From an uncultured delta proteobacterium (lineage in GTDB: Bacteria > Desulfobacterota > Syntrophia > Syntrophales > Smithellaceae), in the NCBI GenBank assembly GCA_903904655.1, contig CAIVDK010000356.1:1-39884 (forward strand): a stretch of 39,884 nt of DNA, in the 5' to 3' direction. The notes under the pieces are model-generated. The model was not told where the DNA came from. It saw only the letters and a program-made list of their open reading frames with translations, and did no database searches. The position numbers were made by a program, and so were the translations under genes. Of the stretch, positions 33,526 through 39,884 are shown piece after piece. How positions within the stretch are numbered: position 1 is the first letter of the stretch; every line of letters starts with the position of its first letter.

Positions 33526-33990
33526 TCAGGCAAACGTGGCAACCACCGTATATTGCCGATGGCCTTGGCGGCCAGTCAAGATAAGGTTTCCGCAGCGAAG
33601 CCAGGCATGGGCCGCGAGCCTCTCCGGATGCGCGTCAGCTTTCGCCACGCCCAGATAAAGCGTGCCGGCGATATGGCGACGCTTCAGCATCCATTGGGCA
33701 GCCACGGCCTGCGGCAGACAGACGCTCTCCCAGGGTGTATAGTTTGCAGCCGCACAGATGGCCTGGCCCACGCTCCGCGCAAGATGCAAATCCGAAGCAC
33801 TGATTCGCGCATCCGCCTCATGCATATGCCTGCCCAACGAGACGGCCAGCCACTTAAACGGTAGGGCAAGCACGGCCAGACGCGCAACGCCCAACAGCAA
33901 AAAGGCTTCCAGCAACAATATCCGCTCGGCGCGGGTGCGGCGGCGCCATTTGGCGAGGACATCCCGAAAAGATTTGAACCATGTTGTCAT
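33526..33990 (-). CDS. Lasso peptide biosynthesis B2 protein (transglutaminase-like leader peptidase)
   Basis: ESVCLPQAVAAQWMLKRRHIAGTLYLGVAKADAHPERLAAHAWLRCGNLILTG: Cys and His motifs of the B2/Transglut_core3 family. Confidence 0.93.
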   Translation of the reverse strand: MTTWFKSFRDVLAKWRRRTRAERILLLEAFLLLGVARLAVLALPFKWLAVSLGRHMHEADARISASDLHLARSVGQAICAAANYTPWESVCLPQAVAAQWMLKRRHIAGTLYLGVAKADAHPERLAAHAWLRCGNLILTGRQGHRQYTVVATFA

Positions 33991-34056: not shown

Positions 34057-35097
34057 TTAGCTTTTAGCCCAGACATGATTCAGAAATCCACATATCTTTT
34101 CGGCTTTTTTGAGCCGCTCGACATGTTCCGGCGGATCGAGACAAGCGGCGTCTCGAAGCAGGCGGACCATGTCATCGTGATCCATGATCCGGAATTTCAA
34201 TAAATCCATGGCATTTTTGTTGCCACTCATTCTGCCGATGGATGTAGAAATCTGCTGCAGGTTCTCTTTATCCAACGGATTTCCAAGGGATCCGGCATCG
34301 AGGGCGTCGAACATGGTTTGGAACCTCGTAGAAATATTTAACCTGGCCATATACATGTTTGTATCAACGGCAAGAGCCCCTTTGGTCTTGGAACGAACAA
34401 AGGAAGGGAAATAGGGAAAAACTATCGGGAAGCAGTTGTTGAGAAATGGCGTCACCTGATGGTAATCCGCCTTGATCCCCATGTATTCCTTGTACGAATG
34501 GATGTCATGGAAACCGGAATCCCTAAGCAAGGCATGGTCTATTTTGGGATTATGCACAGAAACGGTGTCATTGGAAATATCAAAGAAATAGTCTCCGGCC
34601 TGGAATGCCGTTTGAAAGTACATGTTTTTGTACGCTCCCCAAATAACTTGAAATATCCCCCCCGAGGAAATAAAGGTTTGGAACCGGGAAAACCCTTCTG
34701 TTTGCGGCAGGAAGCTTTCCTTCGTCAGGAGGCGCCATACCATTCTTGTTATGGTCGTACAACTCCCGATCGGGTAATTTGTTAAATTTTCCGGCGACAG
34801 CCTCTTTAAAAAAGGATCAACCGCTGCCTGAAGCATCGGGCCATAAAAAACATGGGGGGTGTCAATGGACGGTGTCTGAAGGTTTTCTATGGGGGCGTCA
34901 TACTGGCGAAGCGAGAAATCGTTGACCGCCATGTCGATGGCCTCGCGCAACAGATTAAAATCAAGAATGATTGAGGAAAGATGGGGGATGATATGGGTAC
35001 GGGTCAACCGTTCCTGAACCGAATTCACCGGGGTGATTCTCTGGCTACTCAGGTATGCCTCTACAGATTGTTTCTTTATGCTGTTTAGTAAGGGCAT
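34057..35097 (-). CDS. Uncharacterised protein inside the lasso locus
   Basis: 346-aa ORF collinear with the neighbouring biosynthetic genes; family not recognised. Confidence 0.75.
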   Translation of the reverse strand: MPLLNSIKKQSVEAYLSSQRITPVNSVQERLTRTHIIPHLSSIILDFNLLREAIDMAVNDFSLRQYDAPIENLQTPSIDTPHVFYGPMLQAAVDPFLKRLSPENLTNYPIGSCTTITRMVWRLLTKESFLPQTEGFSRFQTFISSGGIFQVIWGAYKNMYFQTAFQAGDYFFDISNDTVSVHNPKIDHALLRDSGFHDIHSYKEYMGIKADYHQVTPFLNNCFPIVFPYFPSFVRSKTKGALAVDTNMYMARLNISTRFQTMFDALDAGSLGNPLDKENLQQISTSIGRMSGNKNAMDLLKFRIMDHDDMVRLLRDAACLDPPEHVERLKKAEKICGFLNHVWAKS

Positions 35098-35187: not shown

Positions 35188-36048
35188 TCAGTAAATAATC
35201 TTCCCATTTTCATCCAGATACCCGAAACGGCGCATGACCTCCCGATGGTCATCCACGATCCGCTTCGCTTGTGTTTCGTTCAGTTCCTCGCGCCATGAAC
35301 CGATCTGCCCTTTTCGGAAAAAGCGGCTGGACGCCGAGTTTTTTTCGCGGAAGCCCTCCGCCTCTTCCAGTTGCTGCACGACATCGAACAAACTGAAATC
35401 AATCGCCTTTGAAATCTGCTCCCGGGTGTAGTCAAGGCCGGCAAAGCGGATGGCCTTGGTGAAGGTTTCCAGGGGTTGCGATTTCATGTCTTCATAGCGC
35501 AGCAGGCAGACGGGAAACGGGGCGGAATCCACCCAGCTCAAAATATGATTACTCCAGGAAAGCAGTTTCTGGCGCAACTGATTGTGCAGCCGGTCGGGCT
35601 TTCCGCAAAAGGCAAAGGCTTTATCGGCCATGCGGGTTATGGAGGTATCATAGTCCGATCCATTATGATGGGCAAAAGAAACCGCCACATCCAGGGGATT
35701 GCGGATGAAATAGAGCGCCCCGCCCGTGGCAGCATGCGGAATCAAGGACATGTTGTCCGCCACATCGGTATAGGCATCGTGGATTTTCATAAAGAGCTGT
35801 TCCGTAGCGTTTTCAGCAAGGTGGATATAGAGTTCCGGGCGCAACCGGTCAATCTCGTCAGCGGTCAGGTCGGAGGCTTCGAAACCCATATTGTTGTCGA
35901 AGACACCCCTTGCGCTCGCGATGGGCGTACTTTCCAGCTCGTTGATACTTGCCGGTGTATCCGCATCGCGCAAAAGATTGGTCAGAAAGACGCGAAACCA
36001 GGTGTTTCCGGATTTCGGGTAGGAGGCGAGCCAGATGATGCCTTTCAT
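35188..36048 (-). CDS. PAPS-dependent sulfotransferase
   Basis: N-terminal WLASYPKSGNTWFRVFL (5'-PSB) and LYFIRNPLDVAVSFAHH (3'-PB); C-terminal RKGQIGSWREEL. Confidence 0.93.
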   Translation of the reverse strand: MKGIIWLASYPKSGNTWFRVFLTNLLRDADTPASINELESTPIASARGVFDNNMGFEASDLTADEIDRLRPELYIHLAENATEQLFMKIHDAYTDVADNMSLIPHAATGGALYFIRNPLDVAVSFAHHNGSDYDTSITRMADKAFAFCGKPDRLHNQLRQKLLSWSNHILSWVDSAPFPVCLLRYEDMKSQPLETFTKAIRFAGLDYTREQISKAIDFSLFDVVQQLEEAEGFREKNSASSRFFRKGQIGSWREELNETQAKRIVDDHREVMRRFGYLDENGKIIY

Positions 36049-36953
36049 GACAAGAACCTCGCCTCCACCATGTCCATCAATTCATCGAGTAAAAAACCCT
36101 TGTCCGGCCGGACGGTTCGGTAAACGGCGGCATGGGCCGCAACGGCCGCGCATTGCCGGAAATGATCCTTTTTCCCGCCCAGCCCTTCCAGAAAGCGTCG
36201 GCGGTAGGTGTTGTCGAGGAGGGGATCGATCTTCCCGGCACCCTTCAAAGTGGTGATTTCCATTTTATCCGTATTGGTCATTTCCAGGATGAATACGGAT
36301 TTTATCGGAACAGGGGTATTTGAGAAGCCATCCGCGGGCAGAAAATACTTCTCCAGGTCCTTGCCCCAGCGGACGCTTTTGAGGGTGTTCTTATCGGCAT
36401 TTATTTTTTTGAGGACATCAGCCCATAACTTCAACCGGGGAAACCCGGGGATCACTAACGGATGCCCATTATCCGTCGTGATCGCACAAACGTCATCGGC
36501 CAGAAAGGCGTAGCCACGTCGATGAAACCCCGCGGCCAGCGTGGACTTGCCGATTCCGGAAGGTCCGGAAAAAATGATACTCCCCCCGTTCACCGCAATG
36601 GCGCCGGCATGGAGCGCCAGAATGTTTCGCTGGTGGAGGAGCGCACCCATGGCCGAACCCATTAAAAAGACGAGGATATCGTCTTCATTGGCCCCGGCTT
36701 CCGGCAGGATGGTGATGCGGCAGCCTTCCTGCACATGATAGCGGGCGACGCCATCCACCCGCAGCAGAAACTCTCCCGGATCCGCCTGGAAACGCACGCC
36801 TTTGAATTTGGGATTCTTCAGGGCTTCGGGCGCTTCGCCGTAGGTAATAACCACATCCGGATCGGTATCAGGCCGGGGATCAAGAACGGGTGTGGCCGGC
36901 AAGGAAATAACAGAGGTGATTTCCAATCCAAAAATATGATATGTATCATCCAT
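36045..36953 (-). CDS. HPr kinase-like protein, candidate lasso-peptide kinase
   Basis: P-loop IIFSGPSGIGKSTLAAGFHRRGYAFLADDVCAI. 4-nt overlap with the sulfotransferase. Start set to ATG 36953 (MDDTYHIFGLEI) rather than the TTG at 36995, which lies in the repeat. Confidence 0.88.
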   Translation of the reverse strand: MDDTYHIFGLEITSVISLPATPVLDPRPDTDPDVVITYGEAPEALKNPKFKGVRFQADPGEFLLRVDGVARYHVQEGCRITILPEAGANEDDILVFLMGSAMGALLHQRNILALHAGAIAVNGGSIIFSGPSGIGKSTLAAGFHRRGYAFLADDVCAITTDNGHPLVIPGFPRLKLWADVLKKINADKNTLKSVRWGKDLEKYFLPADGFSNTPVPIKSVFILEMTNTDKMEITTLKGAGKIDPLLDNTYRRRFLEGLGGKKDHFRQCAAVAAHAAVYRTVRPDKGFLLDELMDMVEARFLS

Positions 36954-36969
36954 GTGTAATCTGGTCCTA

Positions 36970-37417
36970 TCTCGAACATCTGAATTAATTGACAATTGAT
37001 CACGCGATACTGTTTAGCCTGGTCGGGCAATATATACCGGATCGCTTTGTTCTCCGGCTGATTTGGCAATATCTTAAACGCACGGTTTATGAACGACTGG
37101 CTGATTATTGCCCCGAAGCGGTGGAAATTGCGGAAGGCGGTTTGTCTGGTAAATCATGTCCTGAAAAGCATGAAGTTGGAAAAACATCTGGACAAAACCT
37201 TTATCGGCAGGGCGTCAAAAGGATTTGATTTTTTAGGCTACCACCTTTCACCCGGAGGCTAAGCTGTTGCCGCCGGAACCATCCACCATCACATCGAACG
37301 TCTTGACCGGCTTATGAGCAGGGTTCGTCTCCGTGCCGCATCGGGCAATACACAAGACGGTGGTGGGCGTGGGTTGCTACTTATCTTGTGTTTTCCAGGA
37401 CTGCTCCAACGGGATTG
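36970..37417 (+). pseudogene. Reverse-transcriptase fragment, copy 1 (internally deleted, frameshifted)
   Basis: TIDHAILFSLVGQYIPDRFVLRLIWQYLKRTVY in one frame, then ARFMNDWLIIAPKRWKLRKAVCLVNHVLKSMKLEKHLDKTFIGRASKGFDFLGYHLSPGG in another, then YEQGSSPCRIGQYTRRWWAWV. Confidence 0.88.
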
Positions 37418-37601
37418 GCTCATTTTCACTTGACGCCCTCCGTAGGTGTGCAGAGGCCAAAGGACTCTGTGTCGCGATTGTAGTTCGGGCTTACCATGTG
37501 TCACGGGCCATCGGCGGCCCGAACCTGTCGGCCCCCGCGGCCTTCCTTGTGTCCCTCCCTCCACCTGTGGGCATGGCGAGGCCATCTTTCTTTTGTGAGT
37601 A

Positions 37602-37781
37602 TCAAGAGCCCTGGTGTGTTGACTCATACTCGGCTTGACCGGGCTTGGCGCCGCTCAGTGTTTGTCTGTTTTGAAGTTTTATTAGAGTTGGTCGTCTCCA
37701 CTCGGGTTGTCCGCTTGGTGGCAGTCCGGATAGGATCGGTCGCTCGTCATTGTGTTCTACGTTGGTTGTTTTGGTTTTCAT
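37602..37781 (-). CDS. Candidate lasso peptide precursor 1 (59 aa)
   Basis: RBS AGGAGAG-ACTTATA-ATG; MKTKTTNVEHNDERPILSGLPPSGQPEWRRPTLIKLQNRQTL|SGAKPGQAEYESTHQGS. Leader spacing PxL...T-x-| as in paeninodin-type leaders; Glu9. Absent from the ORF track. Confidence 0.8.
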   Translation of the reverse strand: MKTKTTNVEHNDERPILSGLPPSGQPEWRRPTLIKLQNRQTLSGAKPGQAEYESTHQGS

Positions 37782-37952
37782 TATAAGTCTCTCCTGGTGT
37801 GGTCTAGGCCTACCCCGCCGAGTGGTTCAGTTTCGGGGTCTCCGGTGATTTGCGCTCCTTACTCTCTCTTCTGTCGCTTGTCAATGCTAATCTGGCGTGG
37901 CGCGTTTTGTTCTTCAAATCCGGGCTTCTGTCAATTTGTGTTGGTGTTTCCC

Positions 37953-38400
37953 TCTCGAACATCTGAATTAATTGACAATTGATCACGCGATACTGTTTAG
38001 CCTGGTCGGGCAATATATACCGGATCGCTTTGTTCTCAGGCTGATTTGGCAATATCTTAAACGCACGGTTTATGAACGACCGGCTGATTATTGCCCCGAA
38101 CCGGTGGAAATTGCGGAAGGCGGTTTGTCTGATAAATCATGTTCTGAACAGCCTGAAGTTGGAAAAACATCCGGACAAAACCTTTATCGGCAGGGCGTCA
38201 AAAGGATTTGATTTTTTAGGCTACCACCTTTCACCCGGAGGCTAAGCTGTTGCCGCCGGAACCATCTACCATCACATCGAACGTCTTGACCGGCTTATGA
38301 GCAGGGTTCGTCTCCATGCCGCATCGAGCAATACATTCGACGATGGTGGGCATGGGTTGGGGCGTCTCTTGGATCTGTATGTACTGCTCCAACGGGATTG
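37953..38400 (+). pseudogene. Reverse-transcriptase fragment, copy 2
   Basis: Gap-free direct repeat of 36970-37417 at an offset of 983 bp, with the same internal deletion. Confidence 0.88.
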
Positions 38401-38539
38401 TCTCCGCTAAATTTAGCGCCGCCCGCCCGAGCTCTACCGAGAACAATAGACGCCGTATGGCGGTCCGTGCTCGTTTGATTTGTGGTAATCCAATCTTCGG
38501 AGTCGCGCTATTCGCCGCTGCGGTTCTTCCTGCTGTGGC

Positions 38540-38761
38540 CTAAATCACGTAACCTACCCAAGTTTTCTCGGTTCCCCCGTTTAGGGTTCCACCATTTGTC
38601 CGTGCGGTTGCCCTTGTTTTTACTTTCGGTGCCTGCCACCTCGATTTCTCTGGGATTGCGGGGCGTTGTGAGGTTTGGGATACTCGTGAGGCGTGTTTTG
38701 TGAGTACGGTGTTGTCCTCCACGATTGCGCTATTGGGTTCTGGGTTCGGCTTTTCGGTCAT
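38540..38761 (-). CDS. Candidate lasso peptide precursor 2 (73 aa)
   Basis: RBS AAAGGAG-AAAGAA-ATG; MTEKPNPEPNSAIVEDNTVLTKHASRVSQTSQRPAIPEKSRWQAPKVKTRATARTN|GGTLNGGTEKTWVGYVI; same WxxP-to-Thr spacing as precursor 1; Gly1/Glu9. Confidence 0.82.
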   Translation of the reverse strand: MTEKPNPEPNSAIVEDNTVLTKHASRVSQTSQRPAIPEKSRWQAPKVKTRATARTNGGTLNGGTEKTWVGYVI

Positions 38762-38863
38762 TTCTTTCTCCTTTCTGCGTTTTTCAGGGTTTCGTCTCCA
38801 CGGAACTGTTACTCGGACCTACGGTTTTCTTGTCGCTTTCCGCTCCTGCGGCGTTCACTTTTG

Positions 38864-38980
38864 TTATTGGTTCATCTTGTGTATTGACATGATTGCTTCG
38901 TGCCGCGCGGTTTTTGCTCCTCTGTCTTCTATCGACCTTTTTAGGCTGCGGGGTGTCCTCCACCAAGCCTTGGCAACAAT
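38864..38980 (-). pseudogene. Possible third, decayed lasso precursor
   Basis: IVAKAWWRTPRSLKRSIEDRGAKTARHEAIMSIHKMNQ*: WxxP followed by GAKxxxxE as in precursor 1, but no start codon or leader Thr. Confidence 0.25.
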
Positions 38981-39073
38981 CTAATGGTCTATTTTTTTGG
39001 AATTACATTACAATAAACACGTCCAATTTTCAATATGGTTTCTCAGACATTGCATGTTCGTGTATGTTAAGAT

Positions 39074-39109
39074 AAGCACTACTCTTTGCTTTCCCGTAGA
39101 GTAGTGCTT
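39074..39109 (-). terminator. Hairpin spanning the stop codon of the cyclase gene
   Basis: Inverted repeat AAGCACTACTCT (39074-39085) / AGAGTAGTGCTT (39098-39109); no U-tract on the minus strand. Confidence 0.55.
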
Positions 39110-39884
39110 TGCTTCATGTTGTATTTTTTTATCAGTCCTACATAGCGCAGGTAGAAAGTGAGCTTACGGTGATCTGATATCTCTTTGATCTTGTGCCTCT
39201 CAGGCGGTTGGTTAATCAAATTTTCAAATGCTTTTGGCCGGAAAAAAGACAGGTGTTCCTGCTCTGGAATGGCAAAAAACAACTGTGCCAGGCAACTCTT
39301 GCCGTTTCTCATGTTTTGTCGGGAATAGGCTATCCGCAAGCCTTCTCCCTTGTCTTTTCGTACCCTGATTTTTTCGGTGAGGATTCCTTTCATGGCTTCC
39401 CGGAACAGCAAGCGCGATTGCATATCCCGGTAAGTGTATTCAATGGGGATACCAAACCAGAATTCCAGCACATCTTTATCCAGTAACGGATATTTGTATT
39501 CAAACCCATATCGTTCGGCATGCATCCCCCAGTTATCCATACGCTCCGGGATATGGTAGTTTTCAAGTAAATTCAGCATAAACCGGGTACGGTTTCCATA
39601 ACCGAAGATATTTTTCCGTTCATGGAACAACAGCAACTTCCAATGTTTCAGAATAAATAATGCTTTCAGAAAACGTAGCTTTGACCAGTCTGTATATTGA
39701 GATTGATAGGTTTTAAGCAAACCAAATGGCACCAGAAGGGGTAATATATCCGTCCGAAAACGGCTAATGCTTGATCTGAGTCCGACTTTTCGGATAAATA
39801 TCAGGAGAGTGAACCATTTGAACTTGAAAAACAAATGGTTAAATGTACCGCGTGTGCTCAGCGAAACAAATTCATCTCCACCCC
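39079..39884 (-). CDS. Asparagine-synthase-like lasso cyclase, C-terminal part, 5' end beyond the window
   Basis: Open frame to the edge reads GGDEFVSLSTRGTFNHLFFKFKWFTLL...ERMDNWGMHAERYGFEYKYPLLDKDVLEFWFGIPIEYTYRDMQSRLLFREAMKGILTEKIRVRKDKGEGL (AsnB C-domain; GGDE of the SGGxDE loop). Confidence 0.9.
   Translation of the reverse strand, partial: GGDEFVSLSTRGTFNHLFFKFKWFTLLIFIRKVGLRSSISRFRTDILPLLVPFGLLKTYQSQYTDWSKLRFLKALFILKHWKLLLFHERKNIFGYGNRTRFMLNLLENYHIPERMDNWGMHAERYGFEYKYPLLDKDVLEFWFGIPIEYTYRDMQSRLLFREAMKGILTEKIRVRKDKGEGLRIAYSRQNMRNGKSCLAQLFFAIPEQEHLSFFRPKAFENLINQPPERHKIKEISDHRKLTFYLRYVGLIKKYNMKQSTTLRESKE

Follow-up and report, generated by a model that had tools for sequence, protein, structure and literature searches.

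The window analysed here, an entire 39,884-bp contig from a fragmented genome (473 contigs), carries at its right end two mutually unrelated candidate lasso precursor genes, each backed tail-to-tail by a copy of the same dead 3′ piece of a reverse transcriptase (RT) gene of the UG4 group. We interpret this arrangement, with a probability of about 0.6, as a two-unit array of lasso-precursor cassettes in which recombination at the UG4 RT adds or replaces precursors and keeps the RT copies alike. UG4 is an orphan group of bacterial RTs for which we know of no assigned job; its recurrent tail-to-tail placement next to lasso precursors and exported-protein genes, together with the repeated alternation of RT pieces and unrelated precursors, offers a concrete and testable idea of that job. 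It would also account for the gain of new cores by lasso clusters that have a single enzyme set, and the RT tail could serve to locate precursor arrays in genomes. UG4 RTs and kinase-type lasso clusters were each already known, and what appears to be undescribed is their association: we found no description of a UG4–lasso link, or of alternating RT tails and precursors, in the open-access literature (subscription journals fell mostly outside this search).

A lasso cluster with two precursor–RT units

The lasso cluster occupies the minus strand at the right end of the contig, and the features considered below are as follows.

33526-33990, minus strand: lasso B2 leader peptidase (NF033537, 3.6e-30, over the cut-off)
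34057-35097, minus strand: 346-aa protein with no Pfam match (counterpart in sibling locus L105, 57%)
35188-36048, minus strand: sulfotransferase (PF00685) with a probable tailoring role in the cluster
36045-36953, minus strand: HprK-related kinase, starting ~17 bp from RT copy 1
36970-37404, plus strand: RT copy 1, dead 3′ part of a UG4-group RT gene, with an internal deletion, MND replacing MDD and an in-frame TAA
37412-37601, no strand: 3′ spacer of unit 1, from the RT end to the precursor 1 stop, weakly related to the unit 2 spacer
37602-37781, minus strand: lasso precursor 1, 59 aa, leader ..EWRRPTLIKLQNRQT, core about SGAKPGQAEYESTHQGS, C-terminal Ser
37953-38387, plus strand: RT copy 2, counterpart of copy 1 (97.3% identity across the first 370 bp)
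38395-38539, no strand: 3′ spacer of unit 2 (90.7% identity to L105 over 38388-38539)
38540-38761, minus strand: lasso precursor 2, 73 aa, leader ..RWQAPKVKTRATART, core about GGTLNGGTEKTWVGYVI
39079-39882, minus strand: lasso cyclase (C protein; NF033535, 1.2e-10), an asparagine-synthetase-like fragment cut by the contig end

The kinase matched HprK_rel_A at 1.7e-10, well under the curated cut-off, and a CxxCxxCC protein also belongs to the cluster. No B1/RRE protein was found on the contig, whose end cuts the cyclase; one congener (G006, locus L048) has a PqqD-like ORF on the upstream side of its cyclase, a position that in the window falls past the contig end. The 346-aa protein is possibly a new tailoring or immunity protein. 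The same genome (G000) holds two more lasso clusters with an HprK-like kinase, cyclase and B2, on contigs C3 (L051) and C158 (L050).

Both small ORFs are very probably genuine lasso precursors, as a preliminary description of this DNA had proposed, judging from their motifs and their position next to B2, the cyclase fragment and the HprK-like kinase. They share with the precursors of congeneric clusters (in G006 and G017) the motif W..P.[L/V], a Thr exactly 13 residues past the Trp, a Gly/Ser-rich core and an Asp/Glu at ring distance, and in the congeners, too, cyclase and kinase flank short ORFs. In the window precursors the cleavage site decides whether a Glu is core residue 8 or core residue 9, so that rings of 8 or 9 residues are both compatible with the sequence. 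Precursor 1 ends in Ser and precursor 2 in Ile, and the L105 ortholog of precursor 2 ends in Ser. The precursor blocks (37400-37950 and 38500-38900) are very A-poor on the plus strand (8-15%), and the precursor sense strand is therefore T-poor.

Between cyclase and kinase, an element of ~430 bp is present twice on the plus strand (repeat D1, with a period of 983 bp). The preliminary description had recognized this period and the repeat itself, giving the element a slightly greater length of 448 bp, and had counted about 11 differences over the first ~370 bp; in an ungapped comparison we found 10 differences in 370 bp (97.3%), 15 in 395 and 29 in 435, with a longest identical run of 94 bp and only 71% identity in the final ~65 bp. 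Its minus-strand order was also borne out (precursor 2, RT copy 2, precursor 1, RT copy 1, kinase), with the cyclase ahead of precursor 2; to this we add that the RT reads on the plus strand and the precursors on the minus strand, each RT copy thus lying tail-to-tail with its precursor. Copies are not scattered genome-wide, these two being the only ones in the assembly, and no DNA copy of the element was found in 149 relatives or in plasmids; matches in three relatives (E ~1e-3, 26-51 bp long) were taken as chance.

The precursors themselves are unrelated, in line with the preliminary description, which had called the precursor regions almost unrelated: compared against dinucleotide shuffles, the two coding sequences gave a z score of −0.7 and their 5′ flanks one of 0.5, whereas the ~150-bp 3′ spacers retain a weak similarity (z 4.1, reached in 1 of 300 shuffles).

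Read through its lesions, the element is the 3′ part of a UG4-group RT, with PADLOC RT_UG4 as the best profile for both copies (1.7e-30 and 8.5e-25; next group 1.3e-9, that is, ~1e-9). Both copies lack the same piece of the palm domain, have MND where the catalytic MDD is expected and carry the same TAA; with the YxDD motif damaged in both, this is a dead fragment and not a working UG4 member. Because the deletion, the damaged motif, the TAA and the 5′ boundary are common to the two copies, a single dead fragment was duplicated, and two independent RT insertions are ruled out. Of the two processes joined in the earlier suggestion that RT pieces had landed, or been gene-converted, separately beside each precursor, landing thus drops out and gene conversion or other recombination remains. 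No intact UG4 RT was found in this genome, where the remaining RVT_1 matches are different RTs and none is a parent for the fragment, and the locus itself is therefore uninformative on RT activity.

Searches for associated signatures were negative. Rfam returned no match at E ≤ 1 for window positions 36000-39884, so no recognizable group II intron RNA lies in the region and identity as a group II intron was rejected; no intron families reached gathering scores in the relatives. A common RNA fold at RT ends was not found (z < −3 in L143 only, the window copies being without structure). No template/variable (TR/VR) repeat pair was seen, the RT repeat being the sole repeat found, and the neighbours of the RT copies are lasso genes, with fimbrial genes absent.

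Comparison with a sibling locus

An 'uncultured Geobacter' metagenome-assembled genome (MAG) contains the same cluster (L105), in which the RT fragment occurs only once and one precursor is orthologous to precursor 2. Between the window and L105, identity was 88.3% for the dead RT, 90.7% for the spacer behind the precursor, 81.4% for the precursor coding sequence and 90.4% for the cyclase end, suggesting that precursors evolve only slightly faster than dead RT sequence; at this rate, the 3% difference between the RT copies would pair with roughly a 5% difference between precursors. The earlier proposal of precursor diversification far outpacing that of the dead RT therefore fails if point mutation is meant: because the L105 precursor is at 81% where the dead RT is at 88%, the unrelated window precursors did not arise by point mutation since the RT duplication. 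With only modest divergence of the L105 precursor and unrelated precursors in the window, recombination must be involved.

A second precursor in L105, unrelated to the first (core about GGGNPNTTEDVNYRLADS), is bracketed by duplicated flanks: an additional copy of the cyclase 3′ end (94% over 190 bp) and one of a 52-bp piece of the 3′ spacer found in unit 2 of the window. Thus, across the window and L105, constant flanks were duplicated twice, each time with a differing precursor in between. A transposase-like remnant lies adjacent to this second precursor and second cyclase 3′ end (L105:7250-7975).

UG4 RTs and lasso genes in other lineages

A scan of one genome per species yielded 72 UG4-like loci. 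Besides L105, lasso enzymes stand beside the UG4 RT in 4 of the ~58 other UG4 loci. In Desulfobacter latus (L106) the RT is interrupted by an inserted gene and faces a 57-aa candidate precursor plus a cyclase; in a Bacteroidales MAG (L136) it faces a 60-aa precursor (..WIRPEIKVLSMAESQGGIAIVNEG..) and a cyclase; and in a Hyphomicrobiales MAG (L137) it faces a precursor-like ORF in the company of B2, kinase and sulfotransferase. The fourth, from a Proteobacteria MAG (L143), runs full-length UG4 RT, precursor A, RT tail copy, precursor B, lasso cyclase, and so displays the window's RT/precursor alternation in another lineage. Its tail copy reaches the RT stop (a 126-bp match at 95%, or 121 of 130 positions over 130 bp; 93-95%), and precursors A and B have a common Y.PP.LLIS leader motif, their cores being uncertain because the Thr is missing at the usual place. 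Weaker asparagine-synthetase matches near UG4 RTs in L126 and L123 were left out of the lasso loci. The ORF inserted in the L106 RT (L106:4300-5800; 430 aa) looks by eye like an IscB/RRXRR nuclease.

In a tree of 68 UG4 RTs, lasso-linked members occupy at least two well-supported, separated places; the lasso-linked Desulfobacterota RTs probably form a third, the fossils being short rows of unsure placement. B2 genes are rare, occurring in 30 of 398 genomes of the phylum, and their density, estimated from listed genome sizes, is ~1 per 40-45 Mb. The ~58 UG4 loci hold <0.5 Mb, for which ~0.02 lasso clusters would be expected compared with the four seen besides the query's sibling, an enrichment to be read as order-of-magnitude only because other phyla are possibly several-fold lasso-denser and the query itself is lasso-linked. 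Conversely, a UG4 RT was absent from all 30 further lasso regions inspected in related genomes, and lasso clusters therefore do not need one. The RT fragment is likewise absent from the congeners' lasso loci, where the precursor–kinase interval has antisense PEP-CTERM and PilZ/Arc-like genes (L044, L045 and L048) and therefore looks like an insertion hot spot.

Intact UG4 relatives are small RTs (~320-370 aa). Across UG4 loci in general, the RT and its next downstream gene converge in 42 of 54 loci (34 of 40 when the two lie within 300 bp of each other), and this gene frequently overlaps the RT end. Upstream neighbours are of mixed orientation (29 to 21); a control set of non-UG4 RTs (6 convergent, 5 same) was too small to be useful. 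Convergent partners include PEP-CTERM, Fib_succ_major, TSP3-repeat and outer-membrane-like proteins, and signal-peptide-like starts, called with a crude predictor, occurred in 14 of 30 compared with ~20% elsewhere (p = 0.002). A fimbrial neighbourhood, so far the group's one noted association, has been reported for 66% of UG4 RTs (PMC8934634), which makes it frequent and not universal; in keeping with this, the UG4 RTs that we saw on enterobacterial plasmids either closed fimbrial operons or stood tail-to-tail with genes for inverse autotransporters. PADLOC lists UG4 among defence RTs, and the partners here are exported proteins and RiPP precursors, not defence genes. No UG4 RT was confirmed in viral contigs.

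Repetition at UG4 loci also takes other forms. In a Nitrospinia MAG (L108:1995-4617), three differing small secreted-protein genes stand in succession behind the RT, with a 100-150-bp element repeated in the intervals between them, and in a Parabeggiatoa MAG (L142) and a member of the Bacteriovoracales (L151) several UG4 RT fragments with 74-94% similarity to one another are spaced at intervals of a few kb and all point the same way.

Proposed mechanism and alternatives

Together, these comparisons establish that tail-to-tail UG4–lasso pairing is recurrent, as is a duplicated constant side accompanied by a different precursor. The preliminary description was right to tie a dead RT piece to the precursors as a unit, and UG4 relatives do flank RiPP precursors elsewhere; it lacked the RT group, the tail-to-tail rule and the recurrence in other phyla. 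We read the locus as a cluster of kinase/sulfotransferase type in which each unit consists of a precursor gene with the same UG4 RT 3′ piece tail-to-tail behind it, the RT end and 3′ spacer forming the constant part and the precursor with its upstream region the variable part. Recombination at the RT end may then add, exchange or homogenize units, whether RT copies cross over unequally or undergo gene conversion, or a new cassette inserts next to the RT end. What remains for the window is either an old tandem pair with homogenized RT halves or a precursor cassette added beside the RT. If precursors are added or replaced in this way, one modifying-enzyme set could therefore receive new cores. 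More speculatively, an intact RT might drive the turnover, for instance by copying into cDNA a transcript that extends past the RT gene into its convergent neighbour; here the RT is dead, and host recombination alone could still act.

A bolder extension, which we regard as distinctly doubtful, is that UG4 RTs drive a system of gene-cassette diversification separate from diversity-generating retroelements (DGRs) and integrons, with the RT 3′ end as constant acceptor. Lasso precursors, PEP-CTERM, lectin-like or adhesin genes would be installed tail-to-tail against the RT end, and duplicated RT tails would remain between successive cassettes.

The convergent order of RT and precursor could instead be an insertion preference of the element and not a function. 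A selfish UG4 element would land at 3′ ends or terminators, one copy would have died behind a precursor, and plain tandem duplication, long precursor drift and gene conversion keeping the RT halves alike would have done the rest, with no role for the RT in turnover. We consider this account somewhat unlikely, and several observations sit well with it: the RT is dead at the window locus, UG4 is absent from most lasso clusters, convergent insertion at gene ends would give the observed downstream-orientation bias, and the distant relationship of the two 3′ spacers also fits an old plain tandem duplication followed by gene conversion. It accounts less readily for partners that are enriched for lasso precursors and exported or surface proteins and are not random genes, for the fimbrial neighbourhood reported for 66% of UG4 RTs (PMC8934634), for the lasso link in separated parts of the UG4 tree, and for an alternation that arose again in L143, where the duplicated piece reaches the RT stop.

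An assembly artefact, in which two strain alleles with different precursors and one RT locus were falsely joined in tandem by metagenome assembly, appears improbable. Fragmentation of the genome into 473 contigs, a contig end just past the array and the one-copy state in L105 would be in keeping with such a join, but the RT copies are identical over at most 94 bp with their differences scattered, both lie within the 39.9-kb contig with unique flanks, and the same layout occurs in the independent L143. Targeted, DGR-like hypermutation of a precursor in place with unchanged flanks is very improbable, despite an RT that adjoins a short variable gene and UG4 partners that are often surface proteins of the kind diversified by DGRs, given that no template/variable repeat pair was found, that the unrelated sequence spans the whole coding sequence and 5′ flank and not a short variable repeat, that the ortholog precursor diverges only modestly more than the dead RT, and that UG4 differs from the DGR class of RTs.

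Relation to known systems

Among described systems, the window fragment resembles UG4 RTs (DRT/RT_UG4 in PADLOC) in sequence group and in its place beside a variable surface or exported gene, and differs in having a lasso precursor as partner, in being dead and in the duplication of its 3′ piece between precursors; on enterobacterial plasmids, RTs of the fimbrial cases mostly read in the direction of the operon at whose end they lie, unlike the tail-to-tail arrangement seen here. The cluster is like kinase-type lasso clusters of the paeninodin type (PMC8498205) in its putative HprK-like kinase, B2, cyclase and the C-terminal Ser of precursor 1, the residue used by paeninodin-type kinases, and a sulfotransferase gene is noted in some published clusters. 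It differs from them in having two unrelated cores split by RT pieces and in the lack of a terminal Ser in precursor 2, and its leader Trp and Thr stand two residues closer together than the spacing of the canonical YxxPxL leader would have them (PMC10368454). DGRs likewise place an RT beside a gene of varying product, but the window differs in its opposite orientation, its RT class and the lack of a TR/VR pair, and where DGRs make A-directed substitutions, the window exhibits whole-gene replacement. Finally, integron cassettes, and group IIC introns at attC sites or terminators, resemble the window in combining a constant end with an exchangeable gene and in insertion near gene ends; group IIC introns are set apart by their RNA, for which window positions 36000-39884 have neither an Rfam match nor a recognizable counterpart, and integrons by their integrase, none being seen in the window cluster, where the RT 3′ end itself supplies the constant part.
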